Shown here: positions 16,563 through 40,392 of the stretch, one piece after another | Layout: each line of letters opens with the position of its first letter | How positions within the stretch are numbered: the first letter of the stretch is position 1 | From: Rhodococcus jostii RHA1 | GTDB lineage: Bacteria; Actinomycetota; Actinomycetes; Mycobacteriales; Mycobacteriaceae | Assembly: GCF_000014565.1 (NCBI RefSeq) | Contig: NC_008268.1 | Coordinates: 3,348,001-3,412,000, forward strand | DNA length: 64,000 nt | Direction: 5' to 3' | Made by a program: the position numbers and the translations under genes | The notes under the pieces: model-generated | What the model was told of the DNA's origin: nothing | The model's database searches: none | What the model saw: the letters and a program-made list of their open reading frames with translations, nothing else

Positions 16563-16564
16563 GA

Positions 16565-16582
16565 TTATGTGGACATTTCACG
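16565..16582 (+). repeat. Left terminal inverted repeat of the 21.9-kb element
   Basis: TTATGTGGACATTTCACG, facing inward. It matches the right repeat at 17 of 18 positions. The adjoining inward sequence has further GGACA motifs (about 16,599 and 16,610) that could be extra recombinase binding sites. Confidence 0.85.
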
Positions 16583-17291
16583 TTGGTCAATCTTCTGGAC
16601 AAGCCCAGGACATGGACCTCTCGATCGTTCGGCTCGCATGCGGGAAGCAACCTGGCCCATGAGGGCGTTCCGGCCCGTAGATGAAGGTTGAAATGCCCGG
16701 ATCATGCAGTCCCACTCCTGCGCCGTGAAGACCGCCGGAAAGAACCCAAATGGGGGTGCCGCGGCATAGCCGCGGCAGTGCTTGGAAACTATGGTCGGTC
16801 AGTCGTCGGATGCGACCGGGTCGGTTCGGCATTGGCAGGACCGGGGGTATTGCTCGACGAGAGAAGCCGGAGGTCCTTCCGCTGCCGGGGCAGGTGTTTC
16901 GGGACTCCCATGGGTGTGTCGCTCGGCGGACACCTGCTGCTCCCAGTACATGTGCCCTCGGGCCAAGCGTGGAAGGCTCACGCGACTCCCCTTCTCCGTG
17001 TCCGACGCGCAATCACACCGGGCTTGGGTCATAAAGGCCCGGCACCGTCCTCGCCCTAGCCGCACAACTGGCTTTGCTCAGGTCGACTATCCGCTACCGG
17101 CATTCACATCCAAGCTCGATCGTCCCACCGGACACCTGTGGCTGTCGATCCCTGTCAAGTTTCGGGAGGGAACGGGATGCCCTGCAGGGGGTGGGCTATC
17201 CGTCGGACCCCGTTGCCGCGGCCGAATCGTGGATCAGCTGGGAGCCGATCTCGTCGGGATGTTGCCGCCCGCGGCTCGACTGGTATGACGG
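16583..17291. other. Element left end, non-coding
   Basis: About 700 bases inside the left repeat. Several overlapping frames exist on both strands, but none has a ribosome site or domain pattern. It may contain recombinase binding sites or decayed genes. Confidence 0.4.
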
Positions 17292-18398
17292 TTATCCCGT
17301 GAGTCCGTCGGCGTCGAGGCCGGGCGTCTCGGGCATCTGGAACCCTCCACCGGTCTCACCCGACAGGCCGGGCGTCTCGGGCATCTCGAACCCTCCACCG
17401 GTCTCACCCGACAGGCCGGGCGTCTCGGGCATCTCGAACCCTCCACCGGTCTCACCCGACAGGCCGGGCGTCTCGGGCATCTCGAACCCTCCACCGGTCT
17501 CACCCGACAGGCCGGGCGTCTCGGGCATCTCGAACCCTCCACCGGTCTCACCCGACAGGCCGGGCGTCTCGGGCATCTCGAACCCTCCACCGGTCTCACC
17601 CGACAGGCCGGGCGTCTCGGGCATCTGGAACCCTCCACCGGCGCTGCTGGCGGCCTCGCTACCGAAATTGGGCACGGTGGGTTGCTCAGGGTCCCCACCG
17701 AGCCCACCAGCGACCGGGGCCTGCTCGGCCGGGAAGGTTCCCCGGTCGGCGGGATGTGGCGTCGGCGGCGTGAAGGACTCTGCCGCTTCGCATACCAGCT
17801 TCCCATCCTTTTCCCAGCACCTCGCGGTTGCAGGTTCGGATCGGGGTGTTTGTTTTGGCATCTCCACTGCACGGAGGCTTAGTGCAACTGACGCTGCAAT
17901 CGCGAGAACGGCGATAGCAGCAATAGCAGCAATAGCAGCAAGAATGCTTAGTTTCGGCTTGGGTTTCGACTTCGGCGTCGACTCCGAGGGCGGCCTAGGG
18001 TAGGAGTGAGATTCCCTCAGAATATCTGTCGTTAGTCCACCTTCTAACGCGTTGTGCCAAGCCTCCTTGAGGGCGGTGCGAGTCACTTCCCACTCAGCAA
18101 TGCGGTCTTGCCACTCCTGGTAGAGCCTTTCCTCCTCCTGTCGGAGTCTGTCTAGCTCTTCCCGGGAGGTGGTCTGCTCACGCGATGGATCCGCACCGGA
18201 ACTCCACTGTTCAGCATAGTTTTTCTCGTACTCGTCGCGCCGGTCGCGAGCCTCCCTCCACCCTCTCTCAGCATCTTCCATGCGGTGATATGCGTCCCGC
18301 CAATCCCAAAGGGCCTCAACGTGTTTATCAAGAAGTTTCTGCTGGTTCGCACTAATTGATATGCATGTGTTGGTCGTGACGGCTACTTGTTCGCTCAT
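17292..18398 (-). CDS. Single-pass membrane protein with coiled coil and seven 16-residue repeats
   Basis: 368 residues. Residues 15-145 are highly charged and helical (coiled coil, Glu/Arg-rich). Residues about 148-175 are one hydrophobic Ala/Ile/Leu segment. The rest is Pro/Gly-rich and ends in seven copies of GGGFEMPETPGLSGET. The first and last copies have Gln for Glu. With no signal peptide, the coiled coil would be cytosolic and the repeats outside (type II-like anchor, inferred). Possibly a sensor or scaffold reaching the cell surface. It belongs to no family I recognise. Codon use is normal, and the first Met (18398) is kept. Confidence 0.65.
   Translation of the reverse strand: MSEQVAVTTNTCISISANQQKLLDKHVEALWDWRDAYHRMEDAERGWREARDRRDEYEKNYAEQWSSGADPSREQTTSREELDRLRQEEERLYQEWQDRIAEWEVTRTALKEAWHNALEGGLTTDILRESHSYPRPPSESTPKSKPKPKLSILAAIAAIAAIAVLAIAASVALSLRAVEMPKQTPRSEPATARCWEKDGKLVCEAAESFTPPTPHPADRGTFPAEQAPVAGGLGGDPEQPTVPNFGSEAASSAGGGFQMPETPGLSGETGGGFEMPETPGLSGETGGGFEMPETPGLSGETGGGFEMPETPGLSGETGGGFEMPETPGLSGETGGGFEMPETPGLSGETGGGFQMPETPGLDADGLTG
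17318..17638. repeat. Tandem 48-bp repeat, seven copies, inside the gene
   Basis: Units begin ggccgggcgtctcggg and repeat every 48 bp from 17318. The five inner copies look identical, and the outer two differ at one base that changes Glu to Gln. Such identity points to recent expansion or homogenisation. Confidence 0.9.
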
Positions 18399-18678
18399 GA
18401 CGGGTACTTTCTCTTTCGGCGGGGATCAGCCTCGCCTCCTGCCCGATCGCGTCAGAAACGGTTCGGTTGGATATGTTGTCCAGCGATGCGGCGGTGTGTG
18501 CGGGTGCTCTGCTCTTCGGAAGCCCCCGAGGGATGCCATCGCTGCTGTCTTACCCGGTGCTCGAACAACTCAACGCCGAGATGGAGGATGTTTTCGCACC
18601 CTGCCTCTGAGGTGGCCATGACCGATCGGGCCGTGCCAGTGCTGGATGCCGGATGTTGCGCCTCGGGCGGTTCGGCAC
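18399..18678. other. Intergenic, nothing recognised
   Basis: Between the repeat protein gene and the 3' end of the secreted-protein gene; no supported feature. Confidence 0.35.
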
Positions 18679-19551
18679 TCAGAGGGTGATTTGCGTCGAG
18701 GCCTGGGCGGGCTTTGCCGGGTTGCTGTTCTCCCACAGGAATGTGTATGCGCCGGGGACGGGTTCGTCCATGACGAAGACAATCCACTCGCCTTCGATCT
18801 TGTTTATCGAGGAGACGTTCTCAGAGATGAATCCGCCGCGCTTGTCGCCGCGGGCGGACTGGCCGTCCGGACCTGACAGTTCGAAGTCGCCGGGGTTGAC
18901 ATCAGAGAACCCACCGGTCGAGCAACGGCCGCAGTTTGCGTTGATCTTGACCCAGACCTCATGCTTGCCCTTCTCGCCGGGCTGGTAGCTCGGCCAGAGA
19001 AATGCCTCGTCCAGGGTGATCTCCATGTCCGTGCCGAATGTCATCCCGACCGGGAGGCCCCTCGGCTCGATGCTCTCGACGCTGTCTTGTTCGGCTAGCG
19101 GGATTCGTGTCTGGTTCTCGTCGGCCTGGCCGTAAACGAGGACGACGCTGTCGATGACGTCGGGTGCGTCCGACGAAGTCTTCACAGATGCCGTGGCCGT
19201 GCCGAACGCTTCCCCGCCGCCAGCGATCTCGGGACTGTCGAATGACAGCTTGACCACTGCGCCATCGACCTCGAGGTATGCCTTGTCGGTAGGAGTGTGG
19301 CTGACTCCGACCAGGTTCTTGTAGTTCAGGTCGAAATCGAGTGTCGTCGACGCATCGTCCGAGTTCGCGGTCACCTTGTCGACGGTGATCTCGAAGCCAT
19401 CGTGCCAGCCGATCTTGTCGATCTCGCGCTCGAATGCCGACTGGCTACCTTCCGACGTGGGTTCAGCGGCCGAGGCTAGTGCGGGGAGCAGGAGAGCTGC
19501 GGGTACAACAGCACTGATCAGAAGAGTCGAGCGAAGGGACTTGGGCCACAT
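18679..19551 (-). CDS. Secreted protein with Ig-like (DUF4352-type) domain
   Basis: 290 residues from ATG 19551. A clear signal peptide (MWPKSLRSTLLISAVV...PALASAAEP, cleavage after ASA) is followed by a beta-rich domain (FEITVDKVTANSDDASTTLDF...). The latter resembles the DUF4352 immunoglobulin-like fold common in lipoproteins and secreted proteins of Gram-positives. A second half contains CGRC and another beta region ending ASTQITL. No lipobox. An upstream in-frame start at 19596 is disfavoured because the signal peptide begins at 19551. Likely an envelope or extracellular component of the element's cargo. Confidence 0.65.
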   Translation of the reverse strand: MWPKSLRSTLLISAVVPAALLLPALASAAEPTSEGSQSAFEREIDKIGWHDGFEITVDKVTANSDDASTTLDFDLNYKNLVGVSHTPTDKAYLEVDGAVVKLSFDSPEIAGGGEAFGTATASVKTSSDAPDVIDSVVLVYGQADENQTRIPLAEQDSVESIEPRGLPVGMTFGTDMEITLDEAFLWPSYQPGEKGKHEVWVKINANCGRCSTGGFSDVNPGDFELSGPDGQSARGDKRGGFISENVSSINKIEGEWIVFVMDEPVPGAYTFLWENSNPAKPAQASTQITL

Positions 19552-20201
19552 AGCGAATCTTTCTTTGGCGGGGGGCAGCGTTTCCGTGCCGATCAACGCT
19601 TCCTAGCTTCTCGCGGACAGGCACGGGATATCTTCGACAGCGGGGTGGAAGTTCCTCACCCCCGATGCTGTTCGTGCACCCGCTCCCTGCGCATCCACGA
19701 CCGAGCCCGACATCGACGAACGCCCCCGGTCGAACACGACCTTGAGCGAGGAGCAGTTCGACCTCTTCGAACAGGACGCTGATCTCTACCTCCGCTCAGC
19801 TCAGGGCCAGCGCCAGGTCCCTGTCGGCGCGGTCACCTGTCGAGCGCGTGCCGATCGATCTCCCTACCCGATTTTCCCTGCCGATCTCGCAGCAAGGCGG
19901 CGCACCCGACGTGCCTGCGGTGGGGCGTCTGCGCGCCGGATATCCCGAGCGATCACGTTTCCAGTGCCTTCGACTGAAATGCGCTCTACATCAATTCTCT
20001 GGAAGACCACCGCATGCCAGGAAAAATGTGGTGCGACACTGAGTTTGGCTACTCCAGACAACAGGGCGGAGAGCGCCGCATCAATTTGTCCCGACGATGC
20101 AGGGGTGAGGAACTTCAGACCTGCCGAGGATATCAATCCGCTTCATTTCGCGGGAATCTTGTCGGGACAGCTAAACCGACAAGCAACACAAGGAGTTTCA
20201 C
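19552..20201. other. Intergenic 650 bp, possible gene remnants
   Basis: Around 19,740-19,830 a forward stretch reads LSEEQFDLFEQDADLYLRSA, which looks like former coding sequence but breaks down after about 35 codons. No complete gene is supported. The end carries the ribosome site (AAGGAG) of the next gene. Confidence 0.35.
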
Positions 20202-20732
20202 ATGTCGAACATCAAGAAGCGCACTGTTACGGCGATTGCCATTGCAGCTTTCGCGCTGTCGGCAGGTGCGGGAATTGCGTCCGCCGAACCGGGGGCGCCC
20301 GGGGGCGCGGGGGGCAGCGCCCCAGGCGCACCCGGGGTCGGCGCACCGGGTTTCGGCGCCCCCGGTACGGGCGGTGACGCGCAGAGCAACGCCGAGACCG
20401 GCAACGCCAATGCCGGTGACGGCGGCGCCGGCGCCCCCGGAATTTCCTTCGGCGGCCCGACCATCGGACTGAACAACGGCGGCGGCAACGGCAACAGTGA
20501 GGTGGGCAGCGGCGGCGACGGCGGCAATGCACGTTCCGGCGACGCCACCACGGGCCCGACCACCGGCGGCGACGGCTTCGGCGGCTGGGGTGTCGGCGGC
20601 AGCGGCGCGGGTGGCAACGGTGGAGCGGCCCCTGGAGGTGACGGCGGCACCATCAAGCAGGCACCTGCACCCTCCAACCAGGGCGGCGGCGGCAAGATCT
20701 GCGGCATCGTCCCGATTCCGATCGTCTGCTGA
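20202..20732 (+). CDS. Secreted glycine-rich protein
   Basis: 176 residues. Signal peptide MSNIKKRTVTAIAIAAFALS...GIASAEP with AxA cleavage, then a Gly/Ala/Asn-rich low-complexity region (GGxGGxG runs, like exported actinobacterial PGRS-type repeats), ending GGGKICGIVPIPIVC with two Cys that could form a disulfide. AAGGAG precedes the ATG by 8 bases. It is paralogous to the gene at 21,280: similar ribosome site and signal peptide, and a shared GPTIGL motif. Role unknown; surface or matrix protein is inferred. Confidence 0.7.
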   Translation: MSNIKKRTVTAIAIAAFALSAGAGIASAEPGAPGGAGGSAPGAPGVGAPGFGAPGTGGDAQSNAETGNANAGDGGAGAPGISFGGPTIGLNNGGGNGNSEVGSGGDGGNARSGDATTGPTTGGDGFGGWGVGGSGAGGNGGAAPGGDGGTIKQAPAPSNQGGGGKICGIVPIPIVC

Positions 20733-20763
20733 TTGCGATTTCCTGCTCATAGGATCGCGGATT

Positions 20764-20814
20764 CCCACAGGGCCGGCTCACCCACGGCGACACGGGGCCG
20801 GTCGGCCCTGTGGG
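20764..20814. terminator. Terminator hairpin after the glycine-rich protein gene
   Basis: CCCACAGGGCCG (20764-20775) pairs with CGGCCCTGTGGG (20803-20814), loop 27, 31 bases after the stop. Confidence 0.6.
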
Positions 20815-21279
20815 GGTCCACATGCACGCCAGGGGACCTGCGGCGTGCCCTTCAGCCCGAGAACGCCAGGGCATCGAGCTATCGGGAGAATGGTGCGCTG
20901 GGCGGTCTGTCTCCGCCCCCGACGATCACCCCGAGCATGGCACGGCGGCGTACCCGCCCCTGAACACGCTGCTTCGAAGCTGCGCTTCCGGGGGCATCGA
21001 CCACTCCTGCGGCAATCACCCAACCGGGGGTCCTTCGTCCTCATTCATCCAGCCCGCGTCAACGCGCACGATTCGCGACTGGACGGTAAGAGGCAGGCGG
21101 GTCACTACTGCTATCCGTCGCCGCAGACCACCGGTTTTCCCTTCGCGCCGGGGTGTCCAGTCGAAGCAATTCCTCGGGATCGGCGGTGAGTCCAAAGACC
21201 GTCAGCCGATCTCGGCGACATCCAACCGTTTCGGGGCGCCCTAGACCTCTCTCGACTTCATCACGCAAGGAGTTTGACC
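20815..21279. other. Intergenic, no gene seen
   Basis: About 465 bases between two secreted-protein genes. Only short unsupported frames; presumably holds the promoter of the next gene. Confidence 0.35.
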
Positions 21280-21585
21280 ATGTCGAACACTATGAAATTT
21301 GCTGTTCCCCTGATCGCCTTCACCGCAGTTGCCCTGTCCGTCAGTGGGGGAATCGCCAGCGCGGAAACCAATGACAGCGGCTGGCCGGGGGACTACAGCT
21401 GGGAAGGGCCGCAAGACACTACCTCGCGCGATTCCTCGGCCGCGCCACCCGCACCGACCGTCTCCGTCCATATCCCCGGTGTTTCACTGCCCGGGATCAC
21501 CGTCGGCGGTGTCGGTGTCGGCACCGACGGTATCGCCTTCCCGGGCCCCACCATCGGCCTGCCCGGGCCGGCTGCGCTGCCGTAA
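21280..21585 (+). CDS. Small secreted protein, paralogue of the glycine-rich protein
   Basis: 101 residues with signal peptide (MSNTMKFAVPLIAFTAVALS...GGIASAE). The mature part is Pro/Gly/Val-rich with VHIPGVSLPGITVGGVGVG and FPGPTIGLPGP. AAGGAG lies 7 bases before ATG 21280, and an in-frame TTG at 21274 is less likely. The 5' leader and signal peptide closely resemble those of the gene at 20,202, so the two are duplicates that diverged in the mature region. Confidence 0.65.
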   Translation: MSNTMKFAVPLIAFTAVALSVSGGIASAETNDSGWPGDYSWEGPQDTTSRDSSAAPPAPTVSVHIPGVSLPGITVGGVGVGTDGIAFPGPTIGLPGPAALP

Positions 21586-21817
21586 CCGCTCTCTCCATCC
21601 GCTGTACGACAACTTCTTTCATCCTCAGCGGATACCGCGGTACGCGGCGGCAGTCCCTCTTTCCACCGTCGGCTCGGTGTTGCGGACGAAGACCCGATGG
21701 TGCGGCATCGGGCACTCGGTCTCCGGGCAGTATTGGGCTCGTGACTCGCGCCACGGCTGGGCCCGGCCCGCGGGGTCGGGGCGTTCCCGGGCGGCGCTGT
21801 CGCTCGAGGTACGAGTT

Positions 21818-23818
21818 TTACCGCTGGTCGGTGGTGGTGCTAGTGGATCTGGTGCTGCGGTGGGTTCGACGGTAGCGGCGTCGACGGCCGATGCGGGCGG
21901 CGCCGACGGCGGCGGCGGCCCCGGCCGCCGCCGCGACTGCCGCACAGGCCACCACGGTGGTGGTGGTGGGTAGACGAGCGGTGAGAATCCAGAGGGCGCC
22001 CACGACCGCGGCGCCGAGCACGCCGGCGGTGACGGTGGCGCCGGTGATTCCGGTGATCCGGCTCCGCCCCCGGCGCAGCGAGCGCAGGAACGATTCGAGG
22101 TAGGCAACGGCGAACAGGGTCAGAGCGGCGAGTCCGACGGCGGCGGCGGTGGTGGTCGCCGGCTGGGTGGTGCGGACCGGAAACGTCCACGTGTCGATCA
22201 CCTGACCGGCCTGGAGCAGGGTCAGGGTTCCGGTGAGCGTTCCGGCCACGAAGTACTGTCCGCCGGGTGGGGGCAGTGTCGCGACCGCGGCACCACCCTG
22301 GTTGATCAGTGGCGCGGCGCCGGTGTTCTTGACCGGGATGTCGAGCACGTCGAGGGCCAGGGTCGCAGTGTCGGCGAGACCGGCACCGGCCACCGTCACC
22401 GACACCGGCACGGTCAGATCGAGGGGGACGGGCGCACCGCCGGCTGGGTCCACGCCGGCGACGGTGACAACGCCGACCGGCGGCACATCGACCGGAGGCG
22501 AACCGAGACCGAGCAAGGCCACCAGAACGGTGATGGCCGTCAGGGCGGCGGCGATGACCAGCGGAACACGAGGGGAGGGGAGATTGACGACGGTGCGGAC
22601 GTTGACGAGGTCGGCGCCCGATACGTCGGCGAGGCGGGCGCCGGGGGCGTGGACGGTGATCGACGGGCGCACCGTCGGCGGCGGTTCGGTGGCACGGGAC
22701 CCGGGCGCTGTCGCGGTGGGTGATGCGGTCGGGTCGATGGATCCGGTCGGTGCCGTCGGGTCAGTGGTTGCTGCCGGGTCGGCCCGGTGCGAGTCGGTGC
22801 CGGGAGGGCCCGGGATGGGTCGTCGGGGTGCGGCGTGTGGCCGGGTCAGCGGCAACGGTGGATGGTCGTCGCTGTCGGTCAGAGTCGGGGTGTGCGGGGG
22901 TCCGAGACCGGTGGCCGAGACGATGGTGTCGGCTCCCATCACCGGGATGCCCTCGGTGGTCAGCCACCCCGGGCCCCAGCGACCGGTGGAGGCGGCGGCC
23001 AGCGCGATCCCGAAGGCCTCTGCGGAGGGGTAACGCAGGGTGGGGTCGGTGGCCAATCCGCGCATGACCACGTCGGCGATCGAGTCGGGGACCGCGGGCG
23101 CGGTCTCCTGCAGCGGGGTGGGGTCGTCGAAGGCGTGCATGAACAGCAGGGCCATGGCGTCGTCAGCTGGCGGGAACGGCAGTTCCCCGGCGAGGAGTTC
23201 GTAGAGCATGGTGGCCAGCGCGTAGACGTCGGTGGCGGGAGTGAGTTCGCCGCCGCGGGCCTGTTCCGGTGCGATGTAGGACGGGGTGCCGAGGACGTCG
23301 CCAGCCTTGGTGGCCAGGGTTTGGTCGCCGCCGATGACTTTGGCGATGCCGAAGTCGGTCACCTTGATCGCCCCGGAGGCCGCGAACAGCAGATTTTCGG
23401 GTTTGATGTCGCGGTGCAGGATGGACCGGTTGTGGGCGGCGGTCAACCCGGCCGCGCAGGCCAGTGCCACCGCGACGGCGGAGTGGGCGTTGAATCCGGT
23501 GCAGGTGAACCTGTTCCACACCGTGCCGCCGGGCAGCAGTTCCATCACCAGCAGGCACAGGCCGTCGTGTTCGACGAAGTCGTAGACCGGCACCACGTGC
23601 GGGTGGTCGAGGGAGGCGAGTAGCTGGCCCTCGGCGGTGAATCGGCGCCGGATGCCCGGGTCGGTGGCGAAGGCGGGCGGGAGCTGTTTGATCGCGACCG
23701 GGCGACCGAGGGCGCGGTGACGGCCGGCGAGCACGATTCCCCATCCGCCATGGCCGAGTTCGCCGCCCACCTCGTACGCGGGGAGGGCGGCGGTCACACG
23801 ATCGATGTCGGTATCCAT
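21818..23818 (-). CDS. Membrane Ser/Thr protein kinase (PknB-like, Hanks type)
   Basis: 666 residues. The kinase domain is at about 14-275: Gly loop GELGHGGWG, catalytic Lys44 (VAIKQL), HRDIKPEN (HRD 135-137), DFG 155-157 (KVTDFGIAKV) and GTPSYIAPEQ. All key residues are present, so it should be active. A Pro/Thr-rich linker (about 300-410) leads to a membrane segment near 425, an extracytoplasmic beta-rich region, then two or three further hydrophobic segments and a basic tail. It is the last gene of a three-gene operon, 12 bp after the upstream gene. An FHA protein diverges upstream of that operon, a classic phospho-Thr reader for such kinases. Confidence 0.9.
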   Translation of the reverse strand: MDTDIDRVTAALPAYEVGGELGHGGWGIVLAGRHRALGRPVAIKQLPPAFATDPGIRRRFTAEGQLLASLDHPHVVPVYDFVEHDGLCLLVMELLPGGTVWNRFTCTGFNAHSAVAVALACAAGLTAAHNRSILHRDIKPENLLFAASGAIKVTDFGIAKVIGGDQTLATKAGDVLGTPSYIAPEQARGGELTPATDVYALATMLYELLAGELPFPPADDAMALLFMHAFDDPTPLQETAPAVPDSIADVVMRGLATDPTLRYPSAEAFGIALAAASTGRWGPGWLTTEGIPVMGADTIVSATGLGPPHTPTLTDSDDHPPLPLTRPHAAPRRPIPGPPGTDSHRADPAATTDPTAPTGSIDPTASPTATAPGSRATEPPPTVRPSITVHAPGARLADVSGADLVNVRTVVNLPSPRVPLVIAAALTAITVLVALLGLGSPPVDVPPVGVVTVAGVDPAGGAPVPLDLTVPVSVTVAGAGLADTATLALDVLDIPVKNTGAAPLINQGGAAVATLPPPGGQYFVAGTLTGTLTLLQAGQVIDTWTFPVRTTQPATTTAAAVGLAALTLFAVAYLESFLRSLRRGRSRITGITGATVTAGVLGAAVVGALWILTARLPTTTTVVACAAVAAAAGAAAAVGAARIGRRRRYRRTHRSTRSTSTTTDQR

Positions 23819-23830
23819 GTGCCGGTCCGA

Positions 23831-28451: not shown

Positions 28452-28475
28452 TCCGAGAAACGATCGTTTCTCGGA
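28452..28475. terminator. Perfect 24-bp palindrome after the small membrane gene
   Basis: TCCGAGAAACGA followed at once by its reverse complement (28452-28475). It lies 24 bases beyond the stop at 28499 and so may end the minus-strand operon; a protein-binding palindrome is the alternative. Confidence 0.6.
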
Positions 28476-28498
28476 CAGGCACAATATCTATTTGCGAT

Positions 28499-28747: not shown

Positions 28748-28912
28748 TTCGTGTCCTCCATGTGTCCTGCGGAAGAAGGTGATTCCAGAACCGTTATCAG
28801 TTCCGTCGCAGCGGCCGTGCAAGTTGCGCCGTTTTGGCAGTCATCGCTGCCTGATGTCTCGCCGTGCCATTTTTGGCGCCATGGATCGTCAAGTAGGTTC
28901 GGCCCGAATCTC

Positions 28913-29050
28913 TCACCGCCGTCGCCGGTCACGCCGTCGCCGGTCACGCCATCGCCCGACTACCACCCAGAGACACAATGACCAGAGCAGCGTCAGTCCG
29001 GCCAGGGTGAGCAGGCAGGGCGGGCATTCCCGCAAGCGGTTTCCGTTCAT
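28913..29050 (-). CDS. 45-residue single-pass membrane peptide, coupled to upstream gene
   Basis: Begins MNGNRLRECPPCLLTLAG, has one hydrophobic segment (about 13-32) and ends in a run of Arg/Asp. Its ATG overlaps the stop of the 411-residue gene as ATGA, so it is translated by coupling. The CPPC pair before the helix is notable. Too small to assign. Confidence 0.5.
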   Translation of the reverse strand: MNGNRLRECPPCLLTLAGLTLLWSLCLWVVVGRWRDRRRRDRRRR

Positions 29051-30282: not shown

Positions 30283-31289
30283 CACGCGACTCCCTCTGCA
30301 ATCAGGGTGACCCCACCGATCAGGTGGCGGCTCTCGAACCCGTTGACGTTGATCGCCTGCCGTCCGACGAATCCGTCCGGAGAAGTCACCGTGACCTCCA
30401 CGTCGTTGGCCTCACCGGCCCCCAGACGGAGCTGCTGGTCGTCGACGCCGCCGAAGCTCACTCGCCAGCCGGCGGGGACCGGGTGAGCGAGTGGCTCGTG
30501 CTCGGCCCGTGCACGACGGTCCCGCTCCTCCGCATTCGGCGTCTCGGGCGGGCACAGGCGGCGGGGCGGTAGTTCGTAGCCGTCGACGGCCAGCCGAATG
30601 GTGGCCGCACGGCGCAGTGTGTTGCGGACCGGCACGGTGAATCGCGCTGTGGGACTGTTGAGTGATTTCACGTCGACGTTGTGCTGGCCCAGGTTGTTGT
30701 CCGGGTTTGCATCGAAGGGCCACACGATAAGCGCCTGCAGGCAGTAGTGTCCGGGCCTCGGCGGGGTTCGCCAGTCGACCTTCGCCACGCCCGGCGAACC
30801 GGCCGCCCCCTTGACGGGCACGTCGACCTTGTCGACACCGATCGGAACCGATACTCCGCCTATCCCGAAGTCGAGATAGGACAGCCGAACCTCGACGTCC
30901 GCGGCGGGCCCGTCGGTGGAGCCGTTCCAGATCCGCGCGAACACCCGGTATTCCGTATCCGGCGACAACGCCGATGCGTCGACCGCGACGCCGGGGGCCG
31001 CAGCCAATTCCAAATGAATATCCGGATTGCGCCAAGTGACCGCCAAGCCCTGCTTTCGCAACCAGAACTGGCTGTAGATCAGCGGATCCGCCTCTCGGAA
31101 CGCGAACTCGGGAATAACTCCTGACGGAGCCGAACCCGTAACCGACCCATCCGACCTGTTGACCCGACGCGACCGCGCTGGACGCCCACGAACGCAGGCA
31201 CACAGAAACCTCACCAGCGTGAGGAACAGAACAACCACGGCGACGAGTAAATATCCCCCGACAAGCATCCAAAGGATGCGCTCGGCCAT
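30282..31289 (-). CDS. Membrane-anchored Ig-like (CARDB-type) protein
   Basis: About 335 residues from ATG 31289. One N-terminal membrane segment (ILWMLVGGYLLVAVVVLFLTLV), then basic residues, then a region with the pattern of CARDB/Ig folds (VFARIWNGSTDGPAADVEVRL, ...DNNLGQHNVDVKS, TVPVRNTLRRAATIRLAV). This often mediates binding in bacterial surface or effector complexes. The start is uncertain because no good ribosome site precedes 31289; frames open up to 31490. Stop overlaps the next gene. Confidence 0.6.
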   Translation of the reverse strand: MAERILWMLVGGYLLVAVVVLFLTLVRFLCACVRGRPARSRRVNRSDGSVTGSAPSGVIPEFAFREADPLIYSQFWLRKQGLAVTWRNPDIHLELAAAPGVAVDASALSPDTEYRVFARIWNGSTDGPAADVEVRLSYLDFGIGGVSVPIGVDKVDVPVKGAAGSPGVAKVDWRTPPRPGHYCLQALIVWPFDANPDNNLGQHNVDVKSLNSPTARFTVPVRNTLRRAATIRLAVDGYELPPRRLCPPETPNAEERDRRARAEHEPLAHPVPAGWRVSFGGVDDQQLRLGAGEANDVEVTVTSPDGFVGRQAINVNGFESRHLIGGVTLIAEGVA

Positions 31290-31685
31290 CCTGCGGGTCG
31301 GATTCAGCGAGATACCATCACAATCATCTATGCGCCCAACCTCTCGGAGGCTTGCGCTTCGCCCACACCCGCCGCCCTCGGCGGCTCTTGTCGTCCGGCA
31401 GGACCGAACTCTCGACCTTCTGTTCACCATTCGGTTTCCCAGGTCAGGCCGGTCGACATTTGCCCACCGACATCGTGTGGCTGCCCACACTTCTATTCCT
31501 CGTGGCGACCGATTCTCGGCGCCATGTCGCCCGTAGCAGGGGGCCAGATGTAATTCGGAAGATCCTGCCCTATCAATCGTCCGCCGTAAGACGACAAAAG
31601 GTCAAGACTGGTCAGTTCGCCGCAGCCGGCGGCAGCGACCGCATCACCGACCAGCTCGGCGAAGTGCATCCCGCTAAGGTCCGAG
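31290..31685. other. Gap between protease gene and Ig-like gene
   Basis: Up to 396 bases without a supported gene, shorter if the Ig-like protein starts further upstream. May hold an internal promoter. Confidence 0.35.
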
Positions 31686-32690
31686 CTACGGGTACTCCCG
31701 CTTCGCGAACCTGACGAGGCGGACGATATCGGCCCCGCCTGAGCACCAATTCAGCTTGTAGTCGGGGATGAAGGGTATCGGGCCTTCTGAGGATACGACT
31801 GCCGTCACGAATGGCCAGGGTCGAGCTCCGGAACCGTCGTCGTAATTCCACCAGGCGAACATCGGCGAGCCGGACTGACCTGCTTTCACGTCGGCGTCGG
31901 TGGTCATGGCGCGGCCGGAGCCGTAGTCCCAGTCGTCCTCGTCCATGCTCTTGTTCCCGATGAAGATTGGATGGATCCCGCCAGCGACGTCACCTGGGTA
32001 CCCGATCGAGGACCAGACGGCGTCGTCGTCCCAGTCGCTGTCGTATTCCTTGACCCCGAGCCAACCGAAGGCCTCGCCGAGCCGTTTGTCTAGCACGAGG
32101 CAGGCGTAGTCCTCGTCGACCTCTGTGGACAGGATGCTTCCCTTGACCTTGGTATACGCAATCGCGCGCGTGTCGTAGGCAGTCTCACGAGATGTCGCGC
32201 CTGCCAGGTGGACTTCGATCTTCTCCAGCCCGCCCGACGACCAGTCGACGCAATGACTCGCGGTGAGTACGTGACGTGGCCCGATCAACACGCCCGAGCC
32301 ATACCCGAGGGCGTTGGTGATCTTGCAGACGGATCCCCACGGGTAGTTGTGGTCGTTGTAGACCACGCGGTCGTCGGGGGGATACACGGCGCACGGCTTG
32401 AGCGGTTGACCGTTGCGGAGCACCTTCGGTGGCCGCGGCAGGCGTGCCTTCGCAGGCCGGTAGGAGGTCGCGATCCACGGCGGGCAGTAACCCCCGAGGA
32501 CGCCCGGCACATCCTGACGCTGCGCAGTCTCGTCCTGACGCTGCGCATCCGCGCGTTCGAGGAAATGACGCTCGCGCTGCGGCCGCGCTTCCCGATGGAA
32601 CAGTCTCCGCAGCTCGGCTGGGACGTCCGCCGCGGCTGGCTCACCTTCCCGCCGCCTGAGTTCCACCCAGCTCAGCGCACGTTCGCTCAT
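31686..32690 (-). CDS. Trypsin/V8-like serine protease without signal peptide
   Basis: 334 residues from ATG 32690 (GGAG 6 bases upstream). The S1-type triad is complete: His146 (LTASHC), Asp194 (DEDYACLVLD) and Ser273 (AGQSGSPMF). The GxSGSP form is that of glutamyl endopeptidase/V8-like enzymes. The N-terminal 80 residues are charged and helical, with no signal peptide or membrane helix, so the protease probably works in the cytosol. That is unusual for S1 proteases and known mainly from effector or conflict systems (established for caspase/trypsin-type effectors, inferred here). It heads the minus-strand group with Ig-like and membrane proteins. Confidence 0.85.
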   Translation of the reverse strand: MSERALSWVELRRREGEPAAADVPAELRRLFHREARPQRERHFLERADAQRQDETAQRQDVPGVLGGYCPPWIATSYRPAKARLPRPPKVLRNGQPLKPCAVYPPDDRVVYNDHNYPWGSVCKITNALGYGSGVLIGPRHVLTASHCVDWSSGGLEKIEVHLAGATSRETAYDTRAIAYTKVKGSILSTEVDEDYACLVLDKRLGEAFGWLGVKEYDSDWDDDAVWSSIGYPGDVAGGIHPIFIGNKSMDEDDWDYGSGRAMTTDADVKAGQSGSPMFAWWNYDDGSGARPWPFVTAVVSSEGPIPFIPDYKLNWCSGGADIVRLVRFAKREYP

Positions 32691-32854
32691 CTCACTCTCC
32701 CGTCGGTGCGGTCCGCTCATCGAATCCGTTGCCCAAGCAGGATCTACCTCTATGATCGCCCTCGGACCGTGCGAAGCGCACGAGTACCCGACTACTCAAA
32801 TCTTGCGCGCATCCCACGTGGGTGCTGCGCTCACCCAGGCTCACCGGGCCTAGA

Positions 32855-32960
32855 TCGACCTGACGAACATCTACGTGGACAAGAAGCCCGGGGCGCATTC
32901 GGTTGTGTTGACCGACATCAGACAGCCGAAAGCCCACGACAGCTAGAGCGCGAGGGATTT
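32855..32960 (+). pseudogene. Short relic of a serine resolvase gene
   Basis: The stretch gaacatctacgtggacaaga and its surroundings (about 43 bases) are almost identical to the region of the intact resolvase encoding NIYVDKKSGA (34,321-34,350). The sequence on either side does not align. A decayed fragment left by duplication or recombination. Confidence 0.65.
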
Positions 32961-33226
32961 GTGGCGGGACTATCTGCCATCTCGGAGTCCGAGTACGAGA
33001 GCCTCGCAGAACAAGTGCGGTCTAGGTCCGATCAAGAACCTCAACTATGACCGATTGAATCTCCTGGGCGTGGCGACTGATCGGTTGACCGGTCAACGAT
33101 CGCGGAGAGAAGACGGTCACCAAGGTGTGCTTGCGGTCTCGTCGTTGGAAATGAGACGTCACCCAGACCGTATCCGGATCCTGTAAAAACCCAGGTCGCG
33201 GCGTCTCATAAGTCAATTCCACAATT

Positions 33227-33480
33227 GCGTGTCACAACCTTCGTGCAGATCTGACTTTCGGTACGCCCCTGGAGACGGATTGGGGTACGCACGGATAACG
33301 ACGCCCGAACTCGCGCGTTCGGCGCGCTCACCAAAGCTGGGATCGACCCCCCCGGCAAACGGTCCGCGGACAAGAAGTCCGGGGCCACCACCGAACGTCC
33401 CGAACTGCAGCTACGTTCGAACGGGCGATGTGATCGTGGTGCACATCCTCGACCGGGCGACCGCACCGTCCGCCCGCCCG
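33227..33480 (+). pseudogene. Decayed second copy of the resolvase 5' region
   Basis: About 250 bases align with 34,186-34,450: gtgtcacaac then a divergent leader, ggggtacgc (GYARV), caaagctgggatcgac (KAGID), gacaagaagtccggggccac and gatgtgatcgtggtgcaca. Several indels destroy the frame, and the catalytic Ser motif is damaged. The shared leader shows the upstream recombination region was duplicated too. Confidence 0.75.
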
Positions 33481-33519
33481 CCCCCTGGGGAGGCTCTCGC
33501 ACCGGGCGATCGGCGATCG

Positions 33520-33756
33520 CTACAACAGGTCGGAGTACTGCGAGCGAGCCCTCATGGCATGAATGAGCAGCTCGTTCCCACTGTCGAAGCGCAGGACAAC
33601 CAGTTCCAGGAGCCGTCCATTCGGGTCGAAACCCAGCCGGAACTCGCGCGCGGGGTTGTCGTCGTCCAGACCAGCGGTATATACGTGATGTTCTGCCGCG
33701 TAGATGCCATCATTTTCACTGATCCCGTGTTTGAGCGCGGATTTATGCGCCTTCAC
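33520..33756 (-). CDS. Probable toxin of a type II toxin-antitoxin pair
   Basis: 78 residues from a GTG at 33756 that overlaps the antitoxin stop (GTGA). It begins VKAHKSALKHGISENDGIYAAEHHVY and has LGFDPNGRLLELVVLRFD and ELLIHAMRARSQY. This pattern matches a small actinobacterial family (HALKHG...LEVI...VIHAMPLRPQY) paired with ribbon-helix-helix antitoxins and related to BrnT-like RNase toxins. Family link is from memory of motifs, so function is tentative. Confidence 0.65.
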   Translation of the reverse strand: MKAHKSALKHGISENDGIYAAEHHVYTAGLDDDNPAREFRLGFDPNGRLLELVVLRFDSGNELLIHAMRARSQYSDLL

Positions 33757-34013
33757 GCGACCTGGGTCCAGGCACGCACCGCTTCTCGAATCGCCTCGGA
33801 TCGGGAAACATGCTCCCGCTCGGCACGGGCGTTCAATGCCTCTAGCAATGCCTCGTCCATCCGCACCGGCACTACTGCGCCGGGGCCGTCCCCCACGGTC
33901 GGTCGGCCGCGTTTGCGCAGCTTTTCGACGTCGTAACCGGCCTCGGCCTCGTCTGCCCACTCCTGGATCATCCCGTCCGTGACGGGTGCTCCGTTGATCG
34001 TCTCCTCAGCCAT
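33753..34013 (-). CDS. Ribbon-helix-helix antitoxin
   Basis: 86 residues. The C-terminal 45 residues form a CopG/MetJ-type ribbon-helix-helix (VVPVRMDEALLEALNARAER...VSRSEAIREAVRAW), which binds operator DNA, with the N-terminal part likely neutralising the toxin. Antitoxin first, toxin second, overlapping by 4 bases. A short palindrome lies directly upstream. A TA pair would help keep the element or plasmid. Confidence 0.82.
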   Translation of the reverse strand: MAEETINGAPVTDGMIQEWADEAEAGYDVEKLRKRGRPTVGDGPGAVVPVRMDEALLEALNARAEREHVSRSEAIREAVRAWTQVA

Positions 34014-34020
34014 ATCATTA

Positions 34021-34031
34021 TCGTAATACGA
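34021..34031. promoter_or_regulatory. Candidate antitoxin operator
   Basis: TCGTAATACGA, a 5+1+5 palindrome 8 bases before the antitoxin ATG, placed for autoregulation by the ribbon-helix-helix protein. Confidence 0.5.
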
Positions 34032-34230
34032 AAATGAGCTCTAGGCCACGTCCTCAATCAGGCCCTGGGGGCGGTAGGGGCAGTCGATCCGAGGCATACC
34101 TGCCGCTCCCGGTTCCGGTGGTCCATCGGACCACCCCGGAGACAGCAAAGGACTACGTAGCAGCCCGAAAATTGGTTTTACCTTCCGTGTCACAACATCG
34201 TACAGAACTAACTTTCGCTACTCTCGTCAC

Positions 34231-35190
34231 ATGGAGTTGGGGTACGCCCGGGTGTCGACGAGTAAGCAGGACCTGACGCGGCAGATCGACGCGCTCCGCA
34301 AGGCCGGGGTCGACCAGGCGAACATCTACGTGGACAAGAAGTCCGGGGCCACCACCGAACGTCCTGGATTGCAGGCGCTACTGAGTTACGCCCGCGGCGG
34401 CGATGTGATCGTGGTGCACACCCTCGACCGACTCGGCCGCACCGTCCGCGACACCCTCAACCTGATCCACGACCTGCACCAGCGTGGCATCGGATTCCGG
34501 AACCTGGCCGATCCGATCCGGATCGACTCGACGAACCCGGACGACCCGATGGGGCAGTTGGCGGTGGTACTGCTGGCGCTGTTCGGGCAGATGGAACGCA
34601 CCTACGCGGTCGAGCGGGCCGCCCACGCCCGCACCGTCGCCACCGACAAGGGTCGCCGCACCGGCCGACCCAGCGTGGTCACCGACGCCCAACTCGCCTA
34701 CGCCACCCAGCTCCGCAACGACGGCGCCACGATGGCCGAGATCACCGACAAGACCGGGCTGACCCGCTCGACCCTCTACCGGCACCTGCCGCCCCGACCG
34801 GCGCAGACGCTCACCGCCGACGCCGCGCCTGAGGAAAAGCCATCGCCGGCACTGGTTCCGGTGGCGCCCTCACCGGCGGCCGGACCCTCGGCCTGTCCGA
34901 CCTGCGGATACCAACCCACCACCCGCCGGGATCTCGTCCCGCACCGCGCCGACCTCGCCACCATCTGGCTACACCTCGACGAGCGCGGCCGCCTGCGCGA
35001 GGCACGGCACTGCGCCCGCTGTCAGCCCCATGGTCACGTCCTGGTGATCAGCTGCCGCCGGTGCGGGGACGGTCCGCTGGTCACCGGGCCAGGTTCCGGC
35101 ACCGACGAGATCCCTGCGCCGGTCCGGGACTGGCTCGCACACCACAACTGGTCGGTGGGGTTAGATCTGTTGTGTCCCAACCATTCCTGA
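34231..35190 (+). CDS. Serine resolvase with C-terminal zinc ribbon
   Basis: 319 residues. Catalytic motif YARVSTSKQDL (Ser9), HTLDRLGRTVRDTLN, DPMGQLAVVLLALFGQMER, then a helix-turn-helix (MAEITDKTGLTRSTLYRHL) and a tail with CPTCGYQP, HCARC and SCRRCGDG, as in the recombinase at 1-859. Roles: resolution of cointegrates or multimers. No ribosome site is visible before ATG 34231, so the message may be leaderless. Two decayed copies of its 5' part lie within 1.4 kb upstream. Convergent with the TnpB-like gene, 3 bases between stops. Confidence 0.9.
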   Translation: MELGYARVSTSKQDLTRQIDALRKAGVDQANIYVDKKSGATTERPGLQALLSYARGGDVIVVHTLDRLGRTVRDTLNLIHDLHQRGIGFRNLADPIRIDSTNPDDPMGQLAVVLLALFGQMERTYAVERAAHARTVATDKGRRTGRPSVVTDAQLAYATQLRNDGATMAEITDKTGLTRSTLYRHLPPRPAQTLTADAAPEEKPSPALVPVAPSPAAGPSACPTCGYQPTTRRDLVPHRADLATIWLHLDERGRLREARHCARCQPHGHVLVISCRRCGDGPLVTGPGSGTDEIPAPVRDWLAHHNWSVGLDLLCPNHS

Positions 35191-35193
35191 TCC

Positions 35194-37284
35194 TCAGTGG
35201 GTTTCGCCGTCGTCGAGGTCGTCGAGCAGGTGCTGCAGCCGCCGGCACGTCGCTTCGTGGCGTTCGACTTCCCGCTCCCAGCCGCGGGTGCGGGCGTCGT
35301 CGATCAGTACTTGCTCGGTCGCCAGGCGCGCCCTGATCCGGGGCGCGTACTCGCTGGTGGTGAGGAACTTCGGGCAGGTCAGGATCAGGTCGCATTCGCA
35401 CGGACCCTCCGCAGGTAGCCGCAGGCAGTGTCCCAGTTCGAGTTCGGTCTTGAGGAAATTCGTCTTCAGCCAGTCCACGGTGTCGTCGTCGAGGGCATCG
35501 TGCAGCAGGGCATCGGCCGCCGGGCCGGCGATCCGGTGCCCGTCGGCGAGCGCCGTCTCGTATTGACGGCGGATCTCGGGATCGGAGATTCGGCTGTAAA
35601 TCATGGACATGGTCGCGCTGCGATGGCCGAGTATTGCCATGATCGTCTGGATGCGGGCGCCGCCCTCGGCGAGTTGGGTGCCGAGGGTGTGTCGCAATCG
35701 GTGTGCGCTGACGGTGGGGGCTCCGCGGTCATCGACCAGTCCCGTAGCGGCGCAGACGGTCCGGAACGCCTCGTCGAAGAGGGTCTTGACCGAGAGCAGC
35801 TTGCCGCGGCGGATGAAGACGTAATCGACTCGGCGGCCGGTGACCTCGTCGATCCGGGCGATCGAGCGTTGGGCCCGGGCCAGGCCGATGGCATGGTCGA
35901 GGGCGGCGGCCGCGTCCGGGTGTAGGGGGACGATCCGTTCGCTGTGTCCCTTGCCGACCGGGATCCGCAGCCGTGGATGTCCGCCCGGATAGGTGTCGAG
36001 GCAATCCCAGGTCAGTCTGCGGATCTCGTCGCGGCGGGCCCCGGACCAGCGCAGCAGCAACAGTGCGGCTCGTTGCAGCGGATCGGACAGGTCGCCGATC
36101 GCGGTCATGATCGCATCGAGTTCGTGTTGAGGGAGGTAGCGGGGAATCGATTCCGGGCGCCGGGGTGTGTCGCGGGAGGTCAGCAATGGTCGGCCGGGGA
36201 CCTCGGCCCACTCCCACACCGCGGTGTCGCGGCAGAACCCGGCGATCGCGTTGAGTTCGTGCTTGACCGTGGTCGTCGACAACGGCTGGCCGGTGTGTTG
36301 GCTCGGACAGGTGGGCAGCCACCGCATGTACTCCTCGATGGTGGCGCGATCGAGCTGGGCGAGGCTGGTGATCTCTGGCTGGTGGACGCCGAGCCAGTTG
36401 ACGAACCTGCGCATTGCCTGCCGGACGTTGTGCACCGTCTGCGGCCGATCCAGCTTGGCGTCGAGGCGGAGTTGGAGGTATCGCTCGATGACCGCCCGAA
36501 TCTTGGGCGGGCACGGTTCTGGGAGCAGGCGGTCGGTCCAGTTTGCGATCGTTCGCGTGCCGATGCGCGGCGCGGTGGTGACCTGGCCGACGTTGTACAG
36601 CAGCACATGGGTGCCGTGGAGATTCGCGAGGTGGTTGCGGAGGAACATGAGATTGGCGTCGGGAGCATCGAGGAACTGGCCGTTCGCGAACAATATCCGG
36701 CGCAGGACATTGAAATCTTCGCGTGCTGCGAAGGCGCGGATGGCCGACCCGAACGCAAACAGATCCGCGTCGGTGATCGCGGTCAGATCGGGGTCGCCGC
36801 GATGGAGCATGAGCCGGCCCAGGCACCAGATCAGGCTGTTGCGCGCCTTGACCGAGGAATGGCCCAGTTCGGTCAGCCGCGCGACCCACTGCTCGAGCAG
36901 CGCGAGATCGACGCCGAGGCCGGTGCCGCCACCCCGCCGGTCGAGCAAACGTGCGTACTTGCGGCCGAGAAGGAACTCGAAGTCCAGGCCGACCCCCTGC
37001 ACCATGGACAGATACACCAGGTAGCCGCTGGCACGATGCGAGTCGGTCCGTCCGTTCGAGCGCATGCCCTCGCCGACGAATCCCAGCCGCACCGGCAGGG
37101 GTTCGGTGAACCAGGTTTCCAGGTCCGGCCACCGCTCGACGAACCGGCGATAGGCACCCATCCGCTCCCACCGGGCCGGAAGTTGGGGCACGTGGGTGTC
37201 TACCCACGCCTGGTATTCGCCTTCGTCGACGTGTCGTCGCGGGCGCGGGACCGGTGCCGGCCGCTCAATCGCCGGCCCGGTCAT
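35194..37284 (-). CDS. Tyrosine recombinase, TnpB-like partner of the element
   Basis: 696 residues from ATG 37284, which overlaps the stop of the upstream recombinase as ATGA. A long N-terminal part (1-290) precedes a core-binding domain and a complete catalytic domain: SGARRDEIRRL (Arg), HRLRHTLGTQL (HxxR) and GHRSATMSMIYSRI (His, Tyr). A tail with Cys residues (GPCECDLILTCPKF) resembles the Zn-binding tail of TnpB-type integrases. Together with the 374-residue recombinase it matches the TnpA/TnpB pair of Tn554-like transposons. Both are at the right end of the parB-inserted element and read inward. Confidence 0.85.
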   Translation of the reverse strand: MTGPAIERPAPVPRPRRHVDEGEYQAWVDTHVPQLPARWERMGAYRRFVERWPDLETWFTEPLPVRLGFVGEGMRSNGRTDSHRASGYLVYLSMVQGVGLDFEFLLGRKYARLLDRRGGGTGLGVDLALLEQWVARLTELGHSSVKARNSLIWCLGRLMLHRGDPDLTAITDADLFAFGSAIRAFAAREDFNVLRRILFANGQFLDAPDANLMFLRNHLANLHGTHVLLYNVGQVTTAPRIGTRTIANWTDRLLPEPCPPKIRAVIERYLQLRLDAKLDRPQTVHNVRQAMRRFVNWLGVHQPEITSLAQLDRATIEEYMRWLPTCPSQHTGQPLSTTTVKHELNAIAGFCRDTAVWEWAEVPGRPLLTSRDTPRRPESIPRYLPQHELDAIMTAIGDLSDPLQRAALLLLRWSGARRDEIRRLTWDCLDTYPGGHPRLRIPVGKGHSERIVPLHPDAAAALDHAIGLARAQRSIARIDEVTGRRVDYVFIRRGKLLSVKTLFDEAFRTVCAATGLVDDRGAPTVSAHRLRHTLGTQLAEGGARIQTIMAILGHRSATMSMIYSRISDPEIRRQYETALADGHRIAGPAADALLHDALDDDTVDWLKTNFLKTELELGHCLRLPAEGPCECDLILTCPKFLTTSEYAPRIRARLATEQVLIDDARTRGWEREVERHEATCRRLQHLLDDLDDGETH

Positions 37285-38405
37285 CGGCGATCTCGTAACG
37301 CGGTCGCGTACTCGTCCCGAACCTGTGTGTCGGACACTCGGGTGTAGATCCGGGTCGACTCCGGTGAGGCGTGTCCGAGGCGTCGCTGCAGCGCCAGCTC
37401 CCGCATCCCGGCCTCCCACATCGCCGTCGCGTGGGTATGCCGCAAGGCGTGGGGAGTTTTGTCGGCCGTACGAAATCCGAGCGTGTCGAGCCGCCGGGCG
37501 AACATCCGCACCAACGCGTCGTACGAGAGCGGCACGCAGCGGCGAGCACCCCGCCCACCGACCAGGAACACGAACGGACTCGGTGCATCGACCGGACGTT
37601 CATGGAGCACATACCGATTCACCGCATCCAGCGTGCGCGGCTCAAGCAGGTCGACGACCCGCTCCTGACGCGACTTCGCACGTACACCCCGCGGATGGTC
37701 GTTACGTTTGCGAATCGTGACTCGCCTTCGGCCATAAGCAATGTCGCCGAGTTGAAGCCCGAGAACCTCTCCTGGACGCAGGCCACCGTCGAGCATCAAC
37801 AGCACCATCGCCAGATCCCGCAAACTGCGCATACTCTCCAACAACGCCGTCACCTCGCACTCACGCAGCGGCCGCGGCAAGCGGCGCGGCAACCGGACCC
37901 GTACCTCCCGGCTGACCGGCTGCTGCCGACTCGCGTTTCCGGTGAACGGGCGGTGTCGCTCGGCGACCATCGCCAACGCGACATCGCGACGGCGGCGCAT
38001 CGGATTCTCGCCGATGACGAGTTCGGCGACGATCGCCCAGTCGTAGAAGCTCGATACCGCGGCCAGTACTCGCGCCACGCTAGCCGGCGCCAACAGACGT
38101 CCGCCGGACCCGACCGGTGCAAGACCCAGCCGCTGGGCAGGTCCGCGCACCGGACGGCGGCGCAGCCATCCCAGCAGTTCCAGGGCCAGCGCTGGCCGGA
38201 ATTCGCGCCAGTCGATTCCGCATTCGGCGAAGAACTCGAACGCCAGGCGCAGGTCGTAGCCGTACGCCAACGCCGTGTTCGGGCTCCGGCCGGAATCGAG
38301 CACGTACCGCAGGAACCGGGTCACCGGCGGCACCGGCTCGCCATCGGCTCCGACCAGGACCACCGAGGACACGATCCCGCCCGTCTTCACGGTCTGCACG
38401 TGCAC
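37281..38405 (-). CDS. Tyrosine recombinase, TnpA-like
   Basis: 374 residues. N-terminal SAM-like domain (SPNTALAYGYDLRLAFEFF), catalytic domain with GGLRPGEVLGL, HALRHTHATAM and GHASPESTRIYTRV, so all of R, HxxR, H and Y are present. It starts only 46 bases inside the right terminal repeat and is followed by the coupled TnpB-like gene. Likely the enzyme that recognises the repeats and moves the element. A small TnpC-like third gene is not seen beside it, unlike classic Tn554. Confidence 0.88.
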   Translation of the reverse strand: MHVQTVKTGGIVSSVVLVGADGEPVPPVTRFLRYVLDSGRSPNTALAYGYDLRLAFEFFAECGIDWREFRPALALELLGWLRRRPVRGPAQRLGLAPVGSGGRLLAPASVARVLAAVSSFYDWAIVAELVIGENPMRRRRDVALAMVAERHRPFTGNASRQQPVSREVRVRLPRRLPRPLRECEVTALLESMRSLRDLAMVLLMLDGGLRPGEVLGLQLGDIAYGRRRVTIRKRNDHPRGVRAKSRQERVVDLLEPRTLDAVNRYVLHERPVDAPSPFVFLVGGRGARRCVPLSYDALVRMFARRLDTLGFRTADKTPHALRHTHATAMWEAGMRELALQRRLGHASPESTRIYTRVSDTQVRDEYATALRDRR

Positions 38406-38450
38406 GACCCCAGCCCACCACTGATTGTCCTGCCCCGGGTGACGACCCGC

Positions 38451-38468
38451 CGTGAGATGTCCACATAA
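38451..38468 (-). repeat. Right terminal inverted repeat of the 21.9-kb element
   Basis: Read on the minus strand, TTATGTGGACATCTCACG, matching the left repeat at 17 of 18 positions. Outside it four bases (gaaa on the plus strand) precede the parB sequence. Confidence 0.85.
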
Positions 38469-38472
38469 GAAA

Positions 38473-40391: not shown

Positions 40392-40392
40392 C

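Follow-up and report, generated by a model that had tools for sequence, protein, structure and literature searches.

A 21.9-kb stretch that interrupts a parB gene in the chromosome of Rhodococcus jostii RHA1 is best read as a transposon that a pair of tyrosine recombinases, TnpA and TnpB, would move to a specific site, a target word inside the parB coding sequence; we put the probability of this reading, which rests on comparison of sequences, at roughly 0.86. The window, that is, the whole stretch of DNA analysed, covers 64,000 nucleotides (contig C1, positions 3348001-3412000) of a genome of 9,702,737 bases in four contigs. A sequence-only reading of the same DNA had proposed one mobile unit with a large cargo at this place, and the proposal is supported by natural empty sites, by cargo in common with an element lodged in another parB type, and by relatives with the same ends.

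Insertion in parB and its ends

When the ParB protein of Rhodococcus pseudokoreensis was mapped onto the window (tblastn), residues 73-183 fell at 38805-38473 and residues 183-523 at 16565-15543, both on the minus strand and in phase, as expected for a parB split by an insertion; the limits of the insert were redefined (Table 1) and now include the non-target bases suspected at the junctions, which proved to be six and to lie on one side only. An intact parB matching the joined sequence was sought in genomes and found in R. pseudokoreensis, to which the joined flanks aligned in one gap-free piece (724/724 bases covered, 96.3%), and the match to the parB of an R. opacus plasmid was 96.0% over 717 bases. 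The expectation that excision would restore the gene holds from residue ~70 onwards: rejoining the flanks gives a continuous ParB from residue ~70 to 523 and not the whole gene, as this parB is interrupted again by another recombinase element and lacks its N-terminus. ParB residues before 73 were not found in the window (tblastn E<=0.01; another comparison extends the match to residue 68), and ParB N-terminal matches elsewhere in the genome are distant (C4, residues 11-76, 47%; C1:3864332-3864868, residues 29-197, 36%). Downstream of the remnant, glutaredoxin-like and DnaB-N genes follow in the same order as on an R. pseudokoreensis plasmid, and therefore the remnant is probably plasmid-derived.

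The 18-bp inverted ends described earlier are present as two exact copies of TTATGTGGACATYTCACG (16565-16582, plus strand; 38451-38468, minus strand), with an expectation of 0.05 in the window at <=3 mismatches, two copies in 0/100 shuffles, and no match beyond these two in the whole 9.7-Mb genome at the same threshold, where a reversed control had 2+2 chance matches too. As a terminus the 18-bp repeat was nevertheless ruled out, since across relatives the outer 11 bp only, TTATGTGGACA, are conserved; this core is less telling by itself, with 2 occurrences in the window against 0.22 expected (<=1 mismatch) and 2 reached in 4/100 shuffles. A single pair of such ends, and a single TnpA of the type, are present in the RHA1 genome, and a scan of the genome contigs with TnpB returned 1 locus.

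The recombinases had been placed 46 bp inside one end, and this is indeed where TnpA starts, inside the right end; both genes are open, match Phage_integrase and read inward from that end. Catalytic positions of TnpA, compared over 24 rows, deviate only in the frameshifted R. opacus B4 copy and its strain 9 counterpart, where the deviating positions H319 and Y354 adjoin places at which their pieces were stitched. Over 23 rows of TnpB, some positions are absent from one row only, which is truncated at a contig end.

Table 1. Coordinates, within the window, of the insertion in parB, its parts and the adjoining features.
Feature	Position	Strand	Remarks
Whole insertion, 21,910 bp, including six foreign bases on the TnpA side	16565..38474	-	Omitting it gives a gap-free alignment to uninterrupted parB (L105)
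Far end, conserved 11-bp terminus TTATGTGGACA	16565..16575	+	GTCAA follows 10 nt further inward
Near (TnpA-side) end, conserved 11-bp terminus TTATGTGGACA	38458..38468	-	
Foreign hexamer TCTTTC between parB and near end	38469..38474	-	Not in the empty site; same in relatives in other targets
Target's own hexamer TCGAAG, retained on the far side	16559..16564	-	Found in empty site L105
parB middle fragment, residues 73-182	38475..38805	-	R. pseudokoreensis ParB comparison
parB C-terminal fragment, residues 183-523	15543..16564	-	R. pseudokoreensis ParB comparison
TnpA, tyrosine recombinase, 374 amino acids	37281..38405	-	R210, K244, H319, R322, H345, Y354 present
TnpB, long tyrosine recombinase, 741 amino acids	35194..37419	-	R462, K490, H573, R576, H599, Y608 and conserved four-cysteine tail
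Serine resolvase-family recombinase (PF00239)	34231..35190	+	Cargo of larger elements
Remaining cargo	16583..34230		Includes other proteins without Pfam matches
Ser/Thr kinase, cargo	21818..23818	-	
FHA+LuxR-type regulator, cargo	26298..27113	+	
Trypsin-like protease, cargo	31686..32720	-	
Probable three-recombinase (trio, RIT-like) element, second interruption of the same parB	38806..44309	+	

Empty sites and the six-base rule

For seven insertions a relative without an interruption at that site served for comparison: those in parB of RHA1, of genome G005, of plasmid pRZP5 (ZPP) and of Arthrobacter NicSoilB11-2, and those in resolvase genes of genome G013 (contigs C1 and C4) and genome G048. 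For 7/7 the best fit was obtained with the near six bases dropped and the far six kept, with a gap-free joint, so that six foreign bases stand on the TnpA side, the target's six on the far side, and no target duplication is seen. The resolvase joint of G013:C4 is the best case, being identical at 600/600 positions to the uninterrupted gene on plasmid pRZP4 (514/514 in another comparison). The near hexamer reads TCTTTC in RHA1, G005, G019:C3, ZPP, Arthrobacter, the B4 chromosome and a remnant in G019:C6, and elsewhere TCTCTG (two copies), TCTCAG, TCTCTC or TCGTAC, while the hexamers kept by the targets include TCGAAG, TTGAGG, TTGATG and TCGAGG; in RHA1 the first two bases of TCTTTC are identical to the target's. 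Because it is constant across different targets, the near hexamer TCTTTC would seem to travel with the element.

Relatives, their ends and their sizes

Copies of the ends beside similar TnpA/TnpB genes had also been sought, and they exist in relatives in the 11-bp form. In a table of 12 copies the far end starts with TTATGTGGACA in 12/12 and the near end in 9/12, the near ends of the three resolvase copies carrying one or two changes. Five of these copies lie outside the empty-site comparison, namely G019:C3 (chimeric flanks), the two B4 copies, Microvirga and Shinella. The far-end pattern TTATGTGGACA-N8..11-GTCAA (16 fixed bases) had 9 matches in 28 genomes and its reversed control 0; seven, the window's included, fall in TnpA-bearing elements and two are lone. 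Of the latter, one is in genome G023, which has no TnpA match at E<=1e-40, and the other (G013:C1, 145 kb) has no TnpA/TnpB match within 25 kb on its inner side. An additional lone far end, in a parB fragment of the JS3073 plasmid, has no such match within 12 kb on the inner side, and recombinases of 27-33% sit outside it, on the target side. The near-end pattern gave 0 matches in viral contigs, and a class-wide TnpA search found 2/394 genomes, including the window's own.

Two recombinase searches combined yielded 25 plasmid records, 17 of which were examined. The end table excludes copies for which both ends and the joint were not established (Antrihabitans, two Azospirillum records, Streptomyces, Gemmobacter, NT-26, Kozakia, Sulfitobacter, Frigidibacter, two Pseudonocardia and G155), and R. 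opacus strain 9 received no separate count, its near flank being the same as that of B4 pROB01. From the end coordinates, element sizes are 3.4 kb (two G013 copies), 3.5 kb (Microvirga), 4.6 kb (Arthrobacter), 6.2 kb (G048) and 9.5 kb (Shinella), then 16.0 kb (ZPP, across the record start), ~18.4 kb (G005, if the contig is circular) and 19.3 kb (G019:C3), and finally 21.2 kb (B4 chromosome), 21.9 kb (window) and 33.8 kb (B4 pROB01). Since the recombinases are disrupted in both G013 copies, the Microvirga copy, annotated with intact TnpA and TnpB, serves better as the minimal unit. The TnpA tree groups the resolvase copies in one clade, whose sister holds the parB copies together with B4 and Antrihabitans.

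Two loci may bear traces of later change. In the parB of G019:C6 (L049:11171-12970) the near end alone is left, joined in frame, with FLMWTSH replacing EAD; ACGGCGA is common to element and gene at the joint, which suggests that the remnant may be the scar of a microhomology deletion. At G019:C3 the left flank belongs to one parB type and the right flank to another, suggesting recombination between two copies.

Targets and target word

Relatives insert at fixed codons of their target genes, and many copies were drawn from a plasmid collection, which biases the list towards mobile-DNA targets. Interrupted parB genes occur in RHA1, G005, G019:C3, ZPP pRZP5, Arthrobacter NicSoilB11-2 and, as a remnant, G019:C6; the parB of JS3073 and of G013:C1 carries lone far ends. 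Serine resolvase genes are hit in G013:C1, G013:C4 and G048 (PF00239 for G013:C4, the only one put to Pfam; G013:C1 and G048 were judged by eye and from empty-site matches with a recombinase annotation), and Tn3 transposase genes in Streptomyces, Microvirga and Azospirillum (PF01526). An IS6-type transposase gene is hit in B4 pROB01, where the B4 fragment itself had no match and PF13610 was found in the uninterrupted relative on RHA1 contig C3. DUF6915 genes were assigned in Frigidibacter by Pfam and in NT-26, Sulfitobacter, Kozakia and Gemmobacter by eye, and a SRAP gene in Shinella (PF02586); the B4 chromosomal copy is intergenic, and no target gene was assigned for Antrihabitans, the two Pseudonocardia, G155 and G023. 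The NT-26 and Sulfitobacter copies appear oppositely oriented in the same gene type, DUF6915, and Alphaproteobacterial plasmids (L111-L116) carry a related recombinase pair, in some cases beside three recombinase genes.

Despite unrelated proteins, the parB and resolvase sites have one common DNA word, approximately TGGCCGAGT|TCGA. With a matrix built from four parB sites, the resolvase sites of G013:C1 and G013:C4 outrank all 447,676 background positions and that of G048 is in the top 178; with the reverse matrix, from resolvase to parB, the four parB sites rank within the top 5 to 27.

Cargo and neighbouring elements

In the window the resolvase gene directly follows TnpB on the opposite strand, and partial copies of it occupy 32840-33936 (repeats D7-D9), as if resolvases had accumulated beside the recombinase pair. 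The cargo is partly common to relatives, at 18.6-28.3 kb with G019:C3 and at 25.9-28.3 kb with the G005 element, which occupies a different parB. The block at 21818-27113 (Ser/Thr kinase, two proteins without Pfam matches and the FHA-LuxR regulator) belongs to the part common to the G019:C3 element. Ten proteins searched with PADLOC showed only general kinase and protease resemblance; the cargo kinase resembles the PD-T4-6 kinases of PADLOC, which may be only a general kinase likeness. Tandem repeats of 48 nt (GGGFEMPETPGLSGET-like) and 24 nt (QQPWTPPE-like) lie in cargo proteins at 17269-17700 and 25514-25890.

Next to the insertion, the element that interrupts parB a second time is probably a three-recombinase one, so named by analogy with R. 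opacus pCP105, where two of the three genes carry an integrase annotation; in the window a weak integrase match was obtained for the first open reading frame only. It breaks parB near residue 68-81, where pCP105 (L078) and G019:C6 (L049) are broken too, and a distant parB N-terminal piece on contig C4 of the RHA1 genome ends at residue 76. A further mobile element possibly lies at 10112-13511, where a XerC-like recombinase, a small helix-turn-helix-like protein and a 782-amino-acid protein without family matches stand beside plasmid-derived nrdH/dnaB genes.

Discussion

In the mechanism that we favour, TnpA and TnpB would most likely bind the TTATGTGGACA ends, which would be joined over a six-base spacer in a circular intermediate; the circle would insert at the short word in the parB coding sequence, carrying along the TnpA-side hexamer TCTTTC, and could leave again by clean excision. 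The family would also favour genes of other mobile DNA as targets and thereby spread with plasmids, at the cost of one broken gene in them. Coincidence in a rearranged chromosome, or an assembly artefact, is scarcely credible as an explanation of the repeats and the split gene: parB is broken on its other side as well, with its N-terminus missing, as such an account would have it, yet the low chance expectation of the repeats, the same architecture in other genomes and the gap-free empty sites all speak against it, and for the family so does the fully identical empty resolvase site in a relative. A composite origin is more plausible than that and still very improbable. It would consist of a 3-4 kb TnpA/TnpB element at the right, with the left end and the cargo brought from another copy by deletion or recombination, so that the 21.9 kb never moved as one unit; relatives of 3.4-3.5 kb with TnpA and TnpB only (G013:C1, G013:C4, Microvirga) agree with it, as does the recombination suggested by the two parB types at G019:C3. 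Against this stand the single pair of ends and single TnpA in the genome, flanks of one parB type whose junction aligns gap-free with a single intact gene, and other large two-ended elements (G019:C3, the B4 chromosome and ZPP).

Another rival keeps the element whole and changes its manner of movement to that of Tn554 and of the strand-biased circularizing integrative elements (SE elements): copy-out from a donor that is not emptied, with six bases swapped at each jump and the constant TCTTTC reflecting a recent common source. The Shinella copy has the polarity expected of SE elements, and we hold this account to be unlikely, less so than the two preceding ones, as in SE elements the six target bases stand on the IntA side whereas here they are TnpA-distal in 7/7, and as TCTTTC is common to Rhodococcus and Arthrobacter elements whose TnpB are 63% identical.

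Several points weigh against the transposon reading as we have framed it. All the evidence is comparative; the copies were found through the end motif, so that its constancy is partly built in. Among the empty sites, the G048 comparison is weak because its relative is distant, RHA1 and ZPP were compared with one and the same empty gene, and the 28 genomes offer no empty site across the joint of the B4 chromosomal copy. At the two B4 sites the fit to the parB word is weak, with scores that 0.9% and 0.4% of positions also reach. Strict forms of the six-base rule had to be abandoned: in an eighth copy, that in the IS6-type gene of B4 pROB01, comparison with six target relatives was best with both hexamers kept in 4/6, with the near one kept in 2/6 and with the far one kept in 0/6, and foreign bases are not always on the TnpA side, as the near hexamer of Shinella looks native and that copy fits better reversed, while the Microvirga comparison favours neither side.

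A broader proposal, which we consider tentative and rate at somewhat below even chances, is that a widespread recombinase-pair family in Actinomycetota and Alphaproteobacteria homes on fixed codons of mobile-DNA genes (parB, serine resolvase, Tn3 transposase at a DTGG motif, IS6-type transposase and the plasmid gene DUF6915), carries a constant hexamer of its own, can exit cleanly, and so parasitizes plasmids and transposons through their maintenance and movement genes. If so, the choice of conserved codons in genes for partition, resolvase and transposase would make the family parasitic on mobile DNA, with a direct effect on plasmid stability, and its sites would be natural site-specific landing pads.

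Tyrosine-recombinase elements are best known for tRNA-gene or conserved host-gene targets, and Tn554 inserts in radC. No transposon targeting parB or mobile genes was among the matches listed from the open-access literature. The closest published group is an actinobacterial Tn554-related class with a long and an ordinary tyrosine recombinase, found in plasmids and chromosomes, in some cases without TnpC, and including the RHA1 chromosome (Van Houdt et al., 2012; PMC3414803). The window element agrees with the class as described in the available part of that paper (long and ordinary recombinase, actinobacterial host, TnpC absent in some members), where no ends, targets or cargo are given for it. 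Two plasmids from its Table 2, pREL1 (NC_007491) and pNOCA01 (NC_008697), are present in the collection searched and were not among the 24 records matching the window TnpB (E<=1e-60), for which reason the window element looks like a member of another subfamily.

SE elements, in the available text of PMC10214605, have an IntA/IntB pair, imperfect inverted ends of 13-19 bp and a six-base spacer, and thus resemble the window family; their type members measure 7.2 and 13.8 kb and SE elements have a median of 15.7 kb, they need IntA, Tfp, IntB and Srap, and they are reported only from Gammaproteobacteria. The small copies here hold two genes and not the set of intA, tfp, intB and srap (no search was made with tfp or srap profiles), and in 7/7 comparisons the foreign six bases lie on the opposite side from that of SE elements, to which the Shinella copy looks like an exception. 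GInt islands (PMC5385486) and RIT elements, as far as these sources describe them, are likewise site-specific islands with several tyrosine recombinases, but have four gin or three rit genes where two genes fill the small copies here; the RIT-like neighbour of the insertion lies at 38.8-44.3 kb.

Tn554 itself, as covered in the consulted part of PMC10214605, has two tyrosine recombinases, site-specific insertion and a six-base footprint, with no target duplication according to the title of a reference cited there. A pair of ordinary and long recombinases with catalytic R, H, R and Y is found in the window too (374 and 741 amino acids), as are site-specific insertion and six non-target bases without duplication in 7/7 comparisons, the eighth (B4 pROB01) not fitting. 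Unlike Tn554, the window family targets parB, resolvase and other genes rather than radC, and has its foreign bases on the TnpA side. No tnpC follows tnpB in the small copies or the window, the gap from TnpB to the far end being 240 bp in Microvirga and ~85 bp in the disrupted G013 copies; no TnpC profile was searched, and a distant TnpC could lie elsewhere in the cargo. The earlier assignment to the Tn554 type is thus kept for similar working, and strict membership is not claimed, because the small copies are too short to hold a third gene and the side of the foreign bases differs from that reported for SE/Tn554. Copying of the six bases from the donor's left to the new site's right is also reported for Tn554-related elements in that part of PMC10214605, which calls the movement mode of Tn554 unresolved; clear ends, a hexamer and empty sites make the choice between clean excision and copy-out in a Tn554-like element testable here.

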